Program-made: the position numbers and the translations under genes | NCBI GenBank assembly: GCA_017303675.1 | Contig: JAFLBX010000001.1 | Location: 1,127,970 to 1,191,969 of the forward strand | DNA from: Ignavibacteria bacterium | Lineage (GTDB): Bacteria; Bacteroidota; Ignavibacteria; Tepidaquicellales; OLB5 | Length of the DNA: 64,000 bases | Direction: 5' to 3' | The notes under the pieces: model-generated | Told to the model about the DNA's origin: nothing | Database searches by the model: none | Seen by the model: the letters and a program-made list of their open reading frames with translations, nothing else | Shown: positions 33,630 through 48,605 of the stretch, piece after piece | Layout of the letters: the number at the start of each line of letters is the position of its first letter | Position numbering within the stretch: position 1 is the first letter of the stretch

Positions 33630-34103
33630 TTACATATATTTAGCGGAAGCAATGTTCAATAGATCGAAGTATTTCTGTGAATATTCATCCCTGGCAGTTT
33701 TGGGAGCCCAGTAGCCTGAAAATTCTGTCCATTTAAGAGGTGCCAGGTTGTTTTGTTTTAATATTTCTGAATATTCCATAATTTCATTATTATTAGCAGG
33801 GTCTTTCCTGTAATAAAACTGGGCATTCAGATCTGCAAATTCTTCCAATGTGCAGGGCGGGTTGCCGTTGTTTTTTCTTTCAATTGCTGCTTCAAGAGCA
33901 TTGTTATAATCCTGCTGCAGCGTTAGATAATTTTCCGGTTTGAATAATTCTGCGTTCCATCCGTCTTTAACCGGCTGCCATGCATCCTTTGAAATACCTT
34001 CCTTTTCCAGCGCCTGCCAGAATTCTTCTTCAGTAACTGTATCGGTAGTGGCACAGATAAGTTCTGCATATCTTTGTATTGTTATTCCGTTTATTTCCTG
34101 CAT
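33630..34103 (-). CDS. Two-copy YAEL/GW repeat-domain protein
   Basis: 157 residues, no signal peptide. The first ~75 residues are a domain with GITIQRYAEL near the start, a GISKDAW turn and a DGWNAEL segment. It aligns well with the complete 81-residue protein at 34700-34945. Residues ~80-150 look like a second diverged copy (CTLEEFADLNAQ...NLAPLKWTEFSGYWAPK). Each unit reads 'I..YAEL ... G[IL]....W.....GW'. Predicted helical and cytoplasmic. It lies 14 bp downstream of the DUF1877 gene and is last in the minus-strand run. I cannot name the domain with certainty. Confidence 0.65.
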   Translation of the reverse strand: MQEINGITIQRYAELICATTDTVTEEEFWQALEKEGISKDAWQPVKDGWNAELFKPENYLTLQQDYNNALEAAIERKNNGNPPCTLEEFADLNAQFYYRKDPANNNEIMEYSEILKQNNLAPLKWTEFSGYWAPKTARDEYSQKYFDLLNIASAKYM

Positions 34104-34117
34104 TAGTAATATTAATA

Positions 34118-34666
34118 TTATTGATGGTATTTTATAATAATACCTGTTCTTAATCCTGCTGTTTTGCTTATAAACTCAGCTAGCCTTAAGTAATTACCTG
34201 TTAAAAATTCTTTTGCTGCCAGTTCTGAAGGTGAAAGACTGTTGACAAGCCTTTTTATTCCGCGGACTTGTTTCCATATGCCCGGGTAAATTTTATTTAC
34301 TGCAAGCTTGCCTGAATTATAGTTTTTTCTGAAAATTTCTGCAGATATTTTACTCAGGCAATTGTTTATTTTATTAGTCTGTGCTGAATCAAACAGTCTC
34401 ATATCAGTTACATTAACGCCGTAAATCTCGCTCCAGTTATATTTTCTCAGAACAGTACCTTGATTTAACAAAAATCCTGCTTCGTATTCTGCTGAAATGC
34501 TGCTTAAAATATAATTAATTCCGTGCCATGCTTTATCAAGTTCAAACCAGTTTTCCGGATCTGTATCCTGGATAAATCTGTAAAGCCCGTTTTGATCATC
34601 TGCAAGCTTTATACATTTATCAATCTTGTCATCCGGTATCCTGATTATATCACAGTATAAACCCAT
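34118..34666 (-). CDS. DUF1877-family (YfbM-like) cytoplasmic protein
   Basis: 182 residues starting MGLYCDIIRIPDDKIDKCI, followed by WFELDKAWHGINYILS. That Leu-Asp-Lys-Ala-Trp-His block is typical of DUF1877/YfbM proteins. It has no signal peptide or membrane segment. Neighbours on both sides encode the YAEL/GW repeat domain, with spacings of 33 and 14 bp, so the three are likely one transcript. The biochemical role of DUF1877 is unknown to me. Confidence 0.75.
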   Translation of the reverse strand: MGLYCDIIRIPDDKIDKCIKLADDQNGLYRFIQDTDPENWFELDKAWHGINYILSSISAEYEAGFLLNQGTVLRKYNWSEIYGVNVTDMRLFDSAQTNKINNCLSKISAEIFRKNYNSGKLAVNKIYPGIWKQVRGIKRLVNSLSPSELAAKEFLTGNYLRLAEFISKTAGLRTGIIIKYHQ

Positions 34667-34699
34667 TAAAAAAAGTTTTAAGCCGGTAAATAATTCAGT

Positions 34700-34945
34700 T
34701 TATTTATTCCTGTTATTTTTTGCATCTTTCCAGTGAGCAACAAATACTGATGCAGTTCTTCCCATATCTGAAGGATCTGTTATCCTTTCCTGCCAACCGG
34801 AGTGTGCAGCTTCCCAGTCTGCTCTTTTGATCCCGTTTTCAGCGGCAATTTTAATGCATGCCTGCCTGTCGTTTAAAACATCATCCATATCCGCGCATAG
34901 TTCAGCATATTTTTTAATACTAATCCCTCTAATGTGTTCCATCAA
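34700..34945 (-). CDS. Single-copy YAEL/GW repeat-domain protein
   Basis: 81 residues, cytoplasmic, one copy of the domain found twice at 33630-34103: GISIKKYAELCADMDDV, then NGIKRADWEAAHSGW and a short DPSDMGRTASVFVAHW helix. The shared pattern over the full length shows a real, conserved coding unit despite its size. It is likely co-transcribed with the DUF1877 gene. Function unknown. Confidence 0.65.
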   Translation of the reverse strand: MMEHIRGISIKKYAELCADMDDVLNDRQACIKIAAENGIKRADWEAAHSGWQERITDPSDMGRTASVFVAHWKDAKNNRNK

Positions 34946-35929: not shown

Positions 35930-36740
35930 TTTGTAAATCCTTTCTGATTTTTGTTTGTAAATTTTACTTGTTACAAAAATACTTCTGAATAGTAAGCAAT
36001 ACAAAGAAATGATTTTATATTTGTTTATCTTTTGTTTCCTGCACTGTTTTGATCAGAATAATAACGCCACCCTAAACTATTGTATATTATAGATTAAAAC
36101 TTGGAAATTTATACTTTATTGTTTTAGTACCCGATTTTTCGAAAGATTTTTACGATTGTTTTCAAAAATTGCAGTTAATAACTATCGTGGTAAAAAATCA
36201 GTAATTGAACGAAAATTTAACAAAATTGAAAGTTAGCATTATTTAAATAAAGCATTTTTTTTGATTCAGTGAACTTTGCTGTTTCAATCCTGTATTAATA
36301 TACCTCTGAAGACAGGTATAACATTAAGTAGTTTATTAAAGTCTGCCCGGACATGATCAGCGATACCTTCAGGGCTTCCTATTACGGGCTAAGCAATATC
36401 ATCATAGAAAAGTGATCATTTTATTTTACATACAAATATATTCTCAAATTTTACAGTGAACAAAGAAAGGATTTATTTATTGTTGTCAGGTTTTTATCTA
36501 AATTTTCTGTTTAAATTTTGCGGATAATCATTAAGACAATTATAAATAATGTATATAGCATAGGAATGAGAATTTATATTGTTCACAAATTCTTGTTTTA
36601 GAATAGTATTTTAAGATGTTTTTAAAAATGCGGGTTTTTTTAAGTTAAATATTTTTAAAAACGGTAATTATTGTCGTAAAAATGCGTTTTATATGGTTAA
36701 AAAGTATCATATATTGTTTTAATTTTCCGAATAAAAATAT
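35930..36740. other. 811-bp AT-rich non-coding gap with a possible coding remnant
   Basis: No convincing gene, tRNA or repeat is seen. The only notable part is a less AT-rich stretch around 36284-36388 where a minus-strand frame reads 'PVIGSPEGIADHVRADF' up to a stop at 36284. An in-frame stop interrupts it at 36389-36391 (FYDDIA lies upstream of that stop). It may be a decayed gene end. The last ~150 bp before 36741 is very AT-rich and probably holds the promoter of the following gene pair. Confidence 0.45.
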
Positions 36741-38198
36741 ATGATTAGTTCTACGCTTCTGGGAATTCTCAGTAAATTTTCTGTAAAGGAATTCAAAGAA
36801 TTCGGTGAATTCGTGAAGTCTCCGTTTTTCAATAAAAATATTCATGTAAAACATCTTTACGAATATCTGAAAAAGTTTTATCCGGAATTCAAAGATAAAA
36901 ACCTTGATAAACAAATTGTATTTGAAAAACTTTTTGGGGATAAAGAATACAATGACGGTTTTTTAAGAACGGTTATTTATAATCTGGGAAAGCTGGCTGA
37001 AGATTACCTGGCATATATTAATTTCAGAAAGGATGATCTGAACAGGGGACTGAACCTTTTAAAAGAGCTGAATGAAAGAAAACTTGAAAAGGTTTTTCTA
37101 AAGTACTACAATGAAATTGAAGAGGATATAAATTCTATAACTTTTCATGACCCCGATTATTTCTTCAAAAAGTATGAGCTCCAGAACCAGAAAGAGATCT
37201 ATATGGACTGGACAAAGTTCAAACAAAAAGATTTTAAGAATTATACGACTAATACCGTTACATATATTGATGATGAGTTAACCAGTTATTACCTTTCCAA
37301 AGCCCTTAATCATTACCGTTTTATGCTTGATAAGAACATGTATGAGCAAATTGAACACAATTTTGATTTTATTGAGCATATAATGGATTACCTTTTAACC
37401 AAAGATAATTATTTCAGGGAAAAGCTGAAGATAAAACTTCATCTTTATGAAGTTTTACTGATAAAAGAAAAGAAAGAAGAACATTTTGAGATCTTAAAAG
37501 ATATCTTTTATACCAGCTTTAACAACCTTTCCAGAAGCGATCTTTACAGCCTGCATAATATACTGCAAAGCTACTGCGTGTATATGGGCTATAATAATAA
37601 GCCGGGGTATATTCAAACCCGTTTTGAGCTGTATAAAATTTGTATTGAACAAAAACTTTATGCGGCAGCCGAACATATTTATTTTGATGATCTTATGTTC
37701 GGGAATATAGTCAGTACTGCACTGGCAGTATCTGAATTTAAGTGGGCAGAAGATTTTATTGAGGAGTATAAATCAATGCTTTCACCCGAAAATACAGATG
37801 TAGTGATAAACTATTCCTATTCAAGGCTGCATTTCAGCAAAGGCGATTATGAAAAGGCTCTATTGTTTATTAACAGCATCCGCACCATAAAGCACATACA
37901 GTATAAGCTTCCCGTTAGGGATCTTACTCTGAAAATTTATTATGAGCTGGGCATGCTGGTGCAATCTGCTTACCAGATTGATTCTTACAGGCATTTTTTG
38001 AATAATAATAAAATGTCACTTTCCGATGAAAGGTTTGCCAGAATTCTGAACTTTCTGAAGTTTTACACGCGCCTGGTTAAGATAAAAGAAAAAAATTCAT
38101 CAAAAGACCTTTTAAAATTACAGGAGGATATAGAAAGCACTCCAAATACCCTTGAAAGATCATGGCTGATAAATAAAACAGGAGAAATATTAAATTGA
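36741..38198 (+). CDS. Unknown-family ~480-residue protein, paralogue 1
   Basis: 485 residues, no signal peptide or membrane helix, mostly helical with many aromatic and charged residues. The N-terminal signature LSKFSVKEFKEFGEFVKSPFFNKN, then LYEYLKKFYPEF and a 'KLFGD' turn, is shared with the next gene (LFS block FSQKEMKEFSEFVSSPFFNKN) and, more distantly, with 47118-48605. A C-terminal pair of TPR-like helices (SRLHFSKGDYEKALLFINSI) and the ending 'ERSWLINKTGEIL' also recur. No domain is recognised. It is probably cytoplasmic and regulatory or scaffolding. It is the first gene of a two-gene unit. Confidence 0.7.
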   Translation: MISSTLLGILSKFSVKEFKEFGEFVKSPFFNKNIHVKHLYEYLKKFYPEFKDKNLDKQIVFEKLFGDKEYNDGFLRTVIYNLGKLAEDYLAYINFRKDDLNRGLNLLKELNERKLEKVFLKYYNEIEEDINSITFHDPDYFFKKYELQNQKEIYMDWTKFKQKDFKNYTTNTVTYIDDELTSYYLSKALNHYRFMLDKNMYEQIEHNFDFIEHIMDYLLTKDNYFREKLKIKLHLYEVLLIKEKKEEHFEILKDIFYTSFNNLSRSDLYSLHNILQSYCVYMGYNNKPGYIQTRFELYKICIEQKLYAAAEHIYFDDLMFGNIVSTALAVSEFKWAEDFIEEYKSMLSPENTDVVINYSYSRLHFSKGDYEKALLFINSIRTIKHIQYKLPVRDLTLKIYYELGMLVQSAYQIDSYRHFLNNNKMSLSDERFARILNFLKFYTRLVKIKEKNSSKDLLKLQEDIESTPNTLERSWLINKTGEILN

Positions 38199-39631
38199 AC
38201 CGAAGCAGTCTCATAGAAGCATTCAGAACATTTTCGCAAAAAGAAATGAAGGAGTTTTCGGAATTCGTATCTTCTCCATTTTTTAATAAAAACGTTAATG
38301 TTGTAAAGCTGTTCGAGTTGATCAAAAAAAATTACCCGGATTTTGAGCCGGTTAAAATAGAAAAAGAAAAAGTATTTTCAAAGCTTTTTCCGGGGAAGCC
38401 GTTTAAAGACAGTACTCTAAGGTTATTGATGTACTATTTATATGAGCTTGTTGAAAAATTCCTGGCTTATAACAGATTCTGTGAAGATAAGTTCAGGCAA
38501 AAAGATATTTTGCTTGAAGAATTGTTCTCAAGAAAGTTATTTAAAGATTACGAGAAGTTAATCGATGCAGCAAATGAGGACCTGGACGCATTTAATGTTC
38601 ACGATAATAATTATTTCAGGAACCGGTACCTGTTCGCTGAGCATAAACTCAACTATCTTGCTGAAATTTACATGGGTAAATATGAAAAGTATCTTACTAA
38701 AGATAATATCCAGCTTTTCAGCGATAATATCACGAATTTTTACCTCGTAAGTGTATTGAAATATTATGCCATCACCCTGAACACGGTTTATTTATATAAT
38801 GTAAAAGTTGATACATCGGTTCTTGAAAATATTCTTGTAAATTTTAATATTCATCAGTTTGAAAGTGTTCCCTTGATAATTATATACTACAGGGTAATAA
38901 TGCTGTTCATTAAACCCGAAGATGAAGAGAACTATCATAAGCTGAAAGAGCTGGTTATAAAACATGAAAATGAGATAGGTGATTCCATTGGTGATCTTTA
39001 TATCAATATGGAAAATTATTGTGTAAGGTGTTTAAGAATGGGTAAGCAGGAGTATCTTGACGAATCATTTACAATTTATGAGCTTGAACTAAAAAAGAAT
39101 ACATACAAAAATCACGGTTACATGCCGAATTCTTTTTTTTCAAGTATGGTGGTAACTGCTTCAAAACTAAAACGATTTGAATGGCTCAGAAATTTTATTA
39201 AGGATCATAAAGATGAGATTCATGAATCTTCGAGGGAAGCATATTATTACTACGGGATGGCTTATCTTGAAAATGAAGAAGGAAATTATGAAAAAGCGCT
39301 TGAATACCTGGCCAAAAGCAAGCCTGAAGAAGTATATCTTAAAATGGACCTTAGAATCCTGCAGTCAAGGATATATTACGGATTAAACTGGACACTGCCG
39401 CTTCAATCTTTGCTTGATACTTTTAAAAAGACTGTGCAGAATAATAAATTTATGACTGATATGAGAAAAACTCAATATCACAAATTTATTAAATATACCA
39501 ATTACTTAAATAATATCAGGTATAAAGAAGATAAGCCGGCAGCTCTTGAGCTTTTATACGAACTTGAACGGGATGAATATTTTGCTTATAAACTATGGAT
39601 AGTTGAAGAAGTGAAGAAATTAACTGAATAA
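38195..39631 (+). CDS. Unknown-family ~480-residue protein, paralogue 2 (translationally coupled)
   Basis: 478 residues starting at TTG 38195, which overlaps the stop of paralogue 1 (TTGA); GGAG lies 12 bp upstream. Same plan as the preceding gene: an N-terminal FSQKEMKEFSEFVSSPFFNKN block, 'LFELIKKNYPDFEPV', 'KLFPGKPFKDSTLRLLMYYLYEL', a long helical middle and a TPR-like C-terminal part (YYYGMAYLENEEGNYEKALEYL). Coupled translation suggests the two paralogues act together, perhaps as a heteromer; that is inference. No known domain recognised. Confidence 0.7.
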   Translation: MNRSSLIEAFRTFSQKEMKEFSEFVSSPFFNKNVNVVKLFELIKKNYPDFEPVKIEKEKVFSKLFPGKPFKDSTLRLLMYYLYELVEKFLAYNRFCEDKFRQKDILLEELFSRKLFKDYEKLIDAANEDLDAFNVHDNNYFRNRYLFAEHKLNYLAEIYMGKYEKYLTKDNIQLFSDNITNFYLVSVLKYYAITLNTVYLYNVKVDTSVLENILVNFNIHQFESVPLIIIYYRVIMLFIKPEDEENYHKLKELVIKHENEIGDSIGDLYINMENYCVRCLRMGKQEYLDESFTIYELELKKNTYKNHGYMPNSFFSSMVVTASKLKRFEWLRNFIKDHKDEIHESSREAYYYYGMAYLENEEGNYEKALEYLAKSKPEEVYLKMDLRILQSRIYYGLNWTLPLQSLLDTFKKTVQNNKFMTDMRKTQYHKFIKYTNYLNNIRYKEDKPAALELLYELERDEYFAYKLWIVEEVKKLTE

Positions 39632-47117: not shown

Positions 47118-48605
47118 TTATTTTTGGTGCCTGGAAGCTGTGTTTAATAATTCAGTGCCTTTTTCGTACAACCAGCTTCCCAGTCCCACATTTTTAATGG
47201 GTTCCATTTGTTTAATGTAATATTCTGTTTCGGTTTTATCAAAATTATGGCTTAATTTAAGCAGGTTTTCATAGATCTTTATAAACTTTTGATAACCTGA
47301 TTTAAGATATGCCGGAATATCTTTATGTTTTCTTATATAATCTTTAAGCCTTGCAGTTTCAGCGTAAGAATTTTCGGGGTCATTTAATTCGTAAAAAATT
47401 ATTAATTTATAAACGCTTGTATCAAGATACTGCAAATATCTTTTTCTTCTTACTTTTTTCAGGTAATTCAAAGCATTCACGAAATCTCTCTTATATACCT
47501 TTAAAATACCTGAGTTCAGGTTTACCTCATCTTCGCGTATATCCTCCGGGAGCTCCTTTGAATGCATGTTAATAAAGCTCTCTGCCCAGTCAAATTCATT
47601 TAGCCTAAGTGCGGCGAAAATAAAATTCCTGAAATTATTGGTTTTGGAATTCACAACATTCAGGTCTTTAAATAATCCTTCCTGTATTATACTGTTATTC
47701 AGTGTAAAGATCTCCTTGTAATACCCGGCTTCACCTTTGTTTGTTTTATCAATACAGTAATTCCTTAAATACTGATACACTTCATTTTTATATTCTGCGG
47801 AGAACATGTTTCTGTTCTTCAGGAACATATCCCTTGCCGAAAAATAAAATTCCGAACCATCAGGTTCTTTAAATGACCAATACAAGAGGTAATATATTTC
47901 CGCCGGAATAGATACCACGGGAAGATTCTTTTTGACAATTGAAAGAAGCTTTTCTTTATCGATGCAGTCCAGTAGTTTATTTGAAAGTTCTGAAGATATA
48001 TCAATATTATTTTTCTTTTGCAGTTCAGTATCCAGAAGGTGCTTAAATAAAACTATCAGGAAATGAAGCATCCAGTATTCTGACTGCTGCTTATAATAAA
48101 ATACTGATTCCGATCTATTGTTATGCTCGGTATAAAAAGTGCTGATCTTCTGATATAAAAGATGTACAGCAAAGTAAGTATCGAGTTCTATCTTTTCATT
48201 TAATGCTGATTTTTTAGCGGTAGTAAGCTGAAGCCTTAACAGATTATTAAGTTTACGGACAGAGTATTCTTCCAATAGCAGATTGTTCCTTTGAAGTTTT
48301 TTCCTGTTAATGTTTTGAAAGACAAGGTAACTTTCTGAAATTTTATTTAATTCCGAAAGCCTGTTCCACAATGCCCTTTTGCTTAATTTTAGTTCATTTT
48401 GCAATAATTCTTCAATAGATTGGTATTCTGAGGTATTATTCGAATTTTGAAGTTTTAATAATATGTTAAGTAAAGGTTTATGATTGCGTTTTCCGCTGAA
48501 ATATGGATTTTGAGCAAACTTTATGAAGTTTTTCTTCTCTTTTATTTCAAAATTGAAGAATAATTCAATAAATTTAGAATATCTCTGTTTATGGGTAATT
48601 TTCAT
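47118..48605 (-). CDS. Unknown-family ~495-residue protein, paralogue 3
   Basis: 495 residues, no signal or membrane segment. The N-terminal block 'IELFFNFEIKEKKNFIKFAQNPYFSGKRN' corresponds to 'KFSVKEFKEFGEFVKSPFFNKN' in the genes at 36741 and 38195. The downstream pattern is the same: a helical region with 'LSELNKISESYLVFQNI', the 'RLNEFDWAESFI' motif (EFKWAEDFI in paralogue 1), 'VYKRDFVNALNYLKKVRRKRYL' and the end 'GSWLYEKGTELLN'. It is convergent with the S41 peptidase gene and divergent from a T9SS gene. Diverged but clearly related; no known domain. Confidence 0.68.
   Translation of the reverse strand: MKITHKQRYSKFIELFFNFEIKEKKNFIKFAQNPYFSGKRNHKPLLNILLKLQNSNNTSEYQSIEELLQNELKLSKRALWNRLSELNKISESYLVFQNINRKKLQRNNLLLEEYSVRKLNNLLRLQLTTAKKSALNEKIELDTYFAVHLLYQKISTFYTEHNNRSESVFYYKQQSEYWMLHFLIVLFKHLLDTELQKKNNIDISSELSNKLLDCIDKEKLLSIVKKNLPVVSIPAEIYYLLYWSFKEPDGSEFYFSARDMFLKNRNMFSAEYKNEVYQYLRNYCIDKTNKGEAGYYKEIFTLNNSIIQEGLFKDLNVVNSKTNNFRNFIFAALRLNEFDWAESFINMHSKELPEDIREDEVNLNSGILKVYKRDFVNALNYLKKVRRKRYLQYLDTSVYKLIIFYELNDPENSYAETARLKDYIRKHKDIPAYLKSGYQKFIKIYENLLKLSHNFDKTETEYYIKQMEPIKNVGLGSWLYEKGTELLNTASRHQK

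Follow-up and report, generated by a model that had tools for sequence, protein, structure and literature searches.

What the proteins of an undescribed family do, whether the pairing of two of them is a key to their function and what is contained in the long AT-rich gap in front of the pair are the questions raised by one locus of an Ignavibacteria genome. The window analysed (a stretch of 64,000 nucleotides) harbors two adjacent members of this family, each of about 480 residues, and a third one farther downstream.

Gene pair and family

The three family members of the window and the gene facing the third one are the following:

36741..38198, plus strand: family protein 1, 485 aa, ATG start; cytosolic, with an N-terminal helical domain and a TPR-like superhelix (AlphaFold pLDDT 92.7)
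38195..39631, plus strand: family protein 2, 478 aa; its TTG start (ATG or TTG in orthologues) overlaps the stop codon of gene 1
47121..48605, minus strand: third family member in the window, 495 aa
48723..50495, plus strand: divergent partner of the third member, an intact exported protein of 591 aa with a sorting domain of the type IX secretion system (T9SS; PF18962)

The sequence-only reading had described proteins 1 and 2 as a translationally coupled pair of an undescribed family sharing an SPFFNKN block, a description that the analysis bears out. Both ORFs are present at these coordinates, the stop of gene 1 and the TTG start of gene 2 lie in a 4-base overlap (ATTGA), and the two proteins are full-length paralogues (29% identity, 51% positives, E 1e-52). 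The TTG start is to be considered real, since in six orthologous loci the same position is occupied by ATG (three loci) or TTG (three loci) behind a conserved GGAG. The SPFFNKN block is invariant in both genes of the pair in seven species. Neither a match to a characterised family nor a lack of similarity within the pair was found: in Pfam, NCBIfam, PADLOC and PDB, the window proteins and their relatives correspond to no named family, apart from TPR matches below the cut-off; PADLOC and PHROGs contain no defence or phage family matching them; and neither the family nor a divergently encoded regulator of T9SS cargo was found described in the open-licence literature.

A profile search for the family disclosed about 50 copies in the genome and a spread across classes of Bacteroidota. 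More precisely, the 3.65-Mb genome harbors 49 full-length copies and one separate fragment, as revealed by a genome search followed by an iterated profile run on the stretches fetched around the copies, where a 51st row represents part of another member truncated at the end of a locus. The copies have about 20–33% identity to protein 1; most are intact, and they are not recent. A truncated copy, corresponding to the N-terminal half, is located at C1:676044-676727 of the same genome and adjoins a full copy at 677318. In the order of the window genome, which within Ignavibacteria is near "Chlorobi bacterium OLB5" and UBA2360, the family is present in 42 of the 44 genomes, with 1 to at least 36 copies per genome; using a profile that included distant members, it was found in 135/199 genomes of another Bacteroidota order, outside Ignavibacteria, often in at least eight copies, and hardly at all in the rest of the class beyond the order of the window. 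The phages, viral contigs and plasmids searched gave nothing except one distant member, carried by a Pontibacter plasmid. The two proteins of the pair may form a heteromer, as the sequence-only reading hinted. Tandem pairs account for only 5 of the 45 transcription units of the genome, and pairing is not the rule. The defining feature of the family is a divergent exported partner, rather than the coupling of two paralogues.

Divergent T9SS cargo genes and the gap upstream of the pair

In order to describe the surroundings of the 45 units, genes were called with a home-made procedure that scores codon usage, which was also applied to random regions of this genome; the small ORFs lying between family gene and cargo are uncertain calls. 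The upstream neighbour is divergent in 44/45 units, compared with 19% of the genes in 20 random 20-kb regions (binomial p 8e-31). In 33 of the 45 units, one of the three leading genes of the divergent operon encodes a protein with a T9SS sorting domain, versus 4 of 70 random divergent genes (Fisher p 1e-14), in a genome with at least 150 such proteins; 12/45 units lack a T9SS tail at this distance. The downstream neighbour is convergent in 32/45 units, where the family gene is antisense to both flanks. The same layout occurs in other genomes, with divergent units in 21/23 cases in the same order and 12/13 outside it; in another order, the units are divergent in 20 of 21 cases, and all ten partners tested there possess Por_Secre_tail (PF18962) above cut-off, with bodies ranging from a bare 110-residue tail up to Ig and cadherin-like domains spanning 1282 residues. 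The exceptions to the layout in other genomes are four (L086, L095, L115 and L158); in L095, the family gene is codirectional, located on the same strand 14 bp behind the T9SS gene. The family is associated with divergent T9SS cargo genes; these proteins with a type-A sorting domain are its divergent partners and presumed targets, not its relatives. Genomes with more T9SS-tail candidates also tend to have more copies of the family (rho 0.63, uncorrected for phylogeny). Co-evolution of the family protein with the cargo body was not found, the similarity among family proteins being independent of that among cargo bodies (Mantel p 0.82).

On the Pontibacter plasmid (L136, NZ_CP134698.1 40469-57830), the family gene is divergent from a gene encoding an exported RHS-repeat protein of 1291 aa, followed by one for a DUF6443 protein; to judge from this locus, large exported proteins of other kinds may also be partners of the family.

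Other small genes were observed at these loci. ORFs of 61–69 aa with a ribbon-helix-helix-like motif in common (GYRLKPETHKMI...D) are located between family gene and T9SS cargo at C1:1036038-1036220, 1039503-1039703, 828073-828279 and 833209-833409 (L057, L044, L033); they have no Pfam match and could represent a further DNA-binding partner of small size. Short fibronectin type III ORFs (89–111 aa), without an obvious signal peptide, open the divergent operon in four units (C1:498740, 727811, 843733 and 1345706; L032, L031, L033, L034), and the two scanned both belong to PF00041. In the window itself, the small neighbouring genes at 33630-34945 (minus strand; 157 aa and 81 aa) have an I-x-xYAELxxA-like motif in common and form a small duplicated family.

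The pair of the window faces no intact T9SS cargo gene, and its upstream gap contains the following elements:

36250..36315, minus strand: stub of the lost partner gene, coding for the last part of a T9SS C-terminal sorting domain and containing an in-frame stop (LSSEVY*YRIETAKFTESKKML); tblastn E 8e-4 versus the intact orthologue L070
36431..36468, minus strand: conserved promoter-like elements, Bacteroidota type, of the lost partner, TTTCTTTGT ... TATATTTGTA (alignment of six orthologous loci)
36550..36629, plus strand: conserved inter-promoter blocks, candidate operator, TAGC..GGAA; GAATAGTA....ATGTTTTTAAA (alignment of six orthologous loci)
36680..36730, plus strand: promoter-like block in front of the pair, conserved in the same alignment, AATGCGTTTTATAT..AAAAAGTATCATATATTGTTTTAATTTTCC

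Five related genomes (L064–L067 and L070) have an intact divergent partner of 144–166 residues, in which a signal peptide is followed by a short body and a T9SS tail; of the two tails scanned, one passes the Pfam cut-off and the other narrowly misses it. At these loci, the family proteins are 79–81% identical, the partner tail 53% and the partner body 28%. The window pair has lost its own cargo gene, of which a stub remains. On the basis of the orthologous T9SS gene, the local stub and the promoter-like elements that were kept, the AT-rich gap consists of a promoter region common to both directions and a decayed gene. The proposal that this gap may hold regulation is thus right in part: it contains two back-to-back promoter-like elements with conserved blocks between them (a footprint drawn from one locus in six related species), while another part of it is the remnant of the T9SS partner. 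No RNA element was found in the gap with Rfam. The locus is syntenic in several species, and despite the lost partner the pair is intact (dN about 0.09, dS saturated), so that it may have other targets.

Fold and possible mode of action

The AlphaFold model of the family protein, which has no signal peptide, is an all-helical alpha-superhelix (pLDDT 92.7). The C-terminal helices had been called TPR-like in the sequence-only reading, and this holds for the structure, the model being a superhelix of antiparallel helix pairs, but not for the profiles, since the Pfam TPR matches of the window proteins are all below the curated cut-off and only scattered weak matches occur across the family. The nearest PDB folds retrieved by Foldseek are TPR proteins, including Rap and NprR, none with E <1e-3 and with TM-scores of only about 0.3 for Rap and NprR; a designed PPR protein is among the weak matches, and the comparison with viral models gave generic repeat proteins only. 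The N-terminal domain comprises about 110 residues. When the first 116 residues are modelled alone (pLDDT 94), the model has no wing strands and no fold match in the PDB (best E 2.7). This domain is basic (net +5.5), as is the C-terminal end. The helix 72-97 is conserved within orthologues and different between the two paralogues, as would be expected of a recognition helix, although two other segments match the same pattern.

A cytosolic protein encoded beside an exported one can act on the gene, on its mRNA or on the pre-protein, and the gene is favoured, because codirectional placement is nearly absent, the inter-promoter blocks are conserved and family similarity does not track the cargo body. 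The family is best read, with a probability of about 0.6, as a collection of local regulators, each dedicated to a single T9SS cargo gene, for which we infer the DNA binding, the direction of the regulation and the signal. Each member is a soluble cytosolic protein transcribed divergently from one gene, or one short operon, with a T9SS-exported product; its N-terminal domain would bind the DNA between the back-to-back promoters, its superhelix would sense a protein or peptide signal, and the regulator would switch the cargo gene together with its own. Some observations speak against this reading, that is, the lack of a known DNA-binding domain in Pfam among the members scanned, the N-terminal model with no PDB fold, the footprint drawn from a single locus, the units with no T9SS tail nearby, the window pair that stays intact after the loss of its partner and the codirectional L095 locus.

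A first alternative is that each protein is a cargo-specific cytosolic chaperone or targeting factor, whose superhelix holds the new pre-protein before Sec export. TPR-like superhelices often bind proteins, and the family protein is cytosolic and always beside an exported one; however, nothing in the role of a chaperone requires divergence, and codirectional genes are nearly missing, the similarity of the cargo bodies is not followed by that of the family, and the family protein evolves far slower than the cargo body. This explanation appears unlikely. A regulator whose target is RNA or RNA polymerase instead of an operator (the 5' end of the cargo transcript or a sigma factor, for instance) seems no more probable. 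The helical-repeat fold with its PPR neighbour, the basic ends of the protein and the lack of a recognised DNA-binding domain would agree with it, but the gap gave no Rfam match and the divergent placement better fits a DNA site common to two promoters. A selfish or mobile element inserting upstream of T9SS genes in one orientation might account for the many copies per genome and for their antisense position relative to both flanks, but it is disfavoured and very improbable: the copies are not recent and mostly intact, the window pair is syntenic, phage and viral collections lack the family, plasmids gave a single match and no associated recombinase was noticed in an unsystematic look. Least probable of all is an accessory component of the T9SS machine, as the constant association with T9SS cargo might suggest, since two genomes of the same order (G331 and G337) have SprA (SprA_N) and more than 100 T9SS-tail candidates and no family copy, so that the family is not part of the machine, and the copies differ greatly among themselves.

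The regulator reading can be compared with known systems. LysR-type and similar divergent local regulators are likewise located back-to-back with their target, with about 200–400 bp between the starts, and there is one regulator per target and many paralogues per genome; unlike them, the family has no recognisable helix-turn-helix or winged-helix, its presumed targets are T9SS-exported proteins and a TPR-like superhelix replaces the small-molecule domain. With the RNPP/Rap proteins (Rap, NprR and PlcR, which are TPR peptide sensors), the family shares a helical-repeat superhelix placed after a short N-terminal domain; it differs from them in the lack of HTH_3 and of sequence similarity, in the low TM-scores and in its occurrence in Bacteroidota, not Firmicutes. 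Neither the N-terminal HTH nor the three-helix bundle of Rap that accompanies the TPRs in that group was found by Pfam or PDB fold searches, and no clear Phr-like peptide gene was found near the family genes, whose neighbours are mostly large T9SS cargo, with small ORFs in some loci and no common peptide family. SARP/BTAD-type regulators have a similar domain order (N-terminal helical domain, then repeats) and, presumably, a vague resemblance in one motif (SREELhxxhWP versus TKExIFxKLFPGK); the members scanned have no Trans_reg_C or BTAD match in Pfam, the N-terminal model lacks wing strands, and the SARP-like motif in the N-terminal domain is unsupported by the fold search.

In Porphyromonas gingivalis, PorXY-SigP is a global pathway, made of a two-component system and an ECF sigma factor, for the genes of the T9SS machine, and PorA is a CTD protein relaying a surface signal (PMC7712824, PMC4800418). 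Transcription control tied to T9SS would be the common trait, and the small tail-only partner of the window pair might relay a signal as PorA does; the family differs in that its members, tens of proteins linked to cargo, are not response regulators, nor are they sigma factors.

Meaning for the exoproteome of Bacteroidota

It is conceivable, though we put it forward tentatively, that these proteins represent a new class of regulators, in which a DNA-binding fold absent from the PDB is joined to a TPR-like sensor and which controls T9SS cargo genes individually throughout Bacteroidota; lineages with a large exoproteome would then possess tens of such modules, where the exported protein is exchangeable and the regulator stays. 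In Bacteroidota, T9SS cargo ranks among the principal surface and exported proteins. The control of T9SS found in the literature is the global one exerted by PorXY-SigP, and the family offers a handle on the switching of single cargo genes. It also marks a possible new DNA-binding fold. Being unnamed in Pfam and NCBIfam, it would allow a function to be assigned to many "hypothetical proteins" at once and, as a practical marker, the presence of a member predicts an exported product for the divergent gene behind it.
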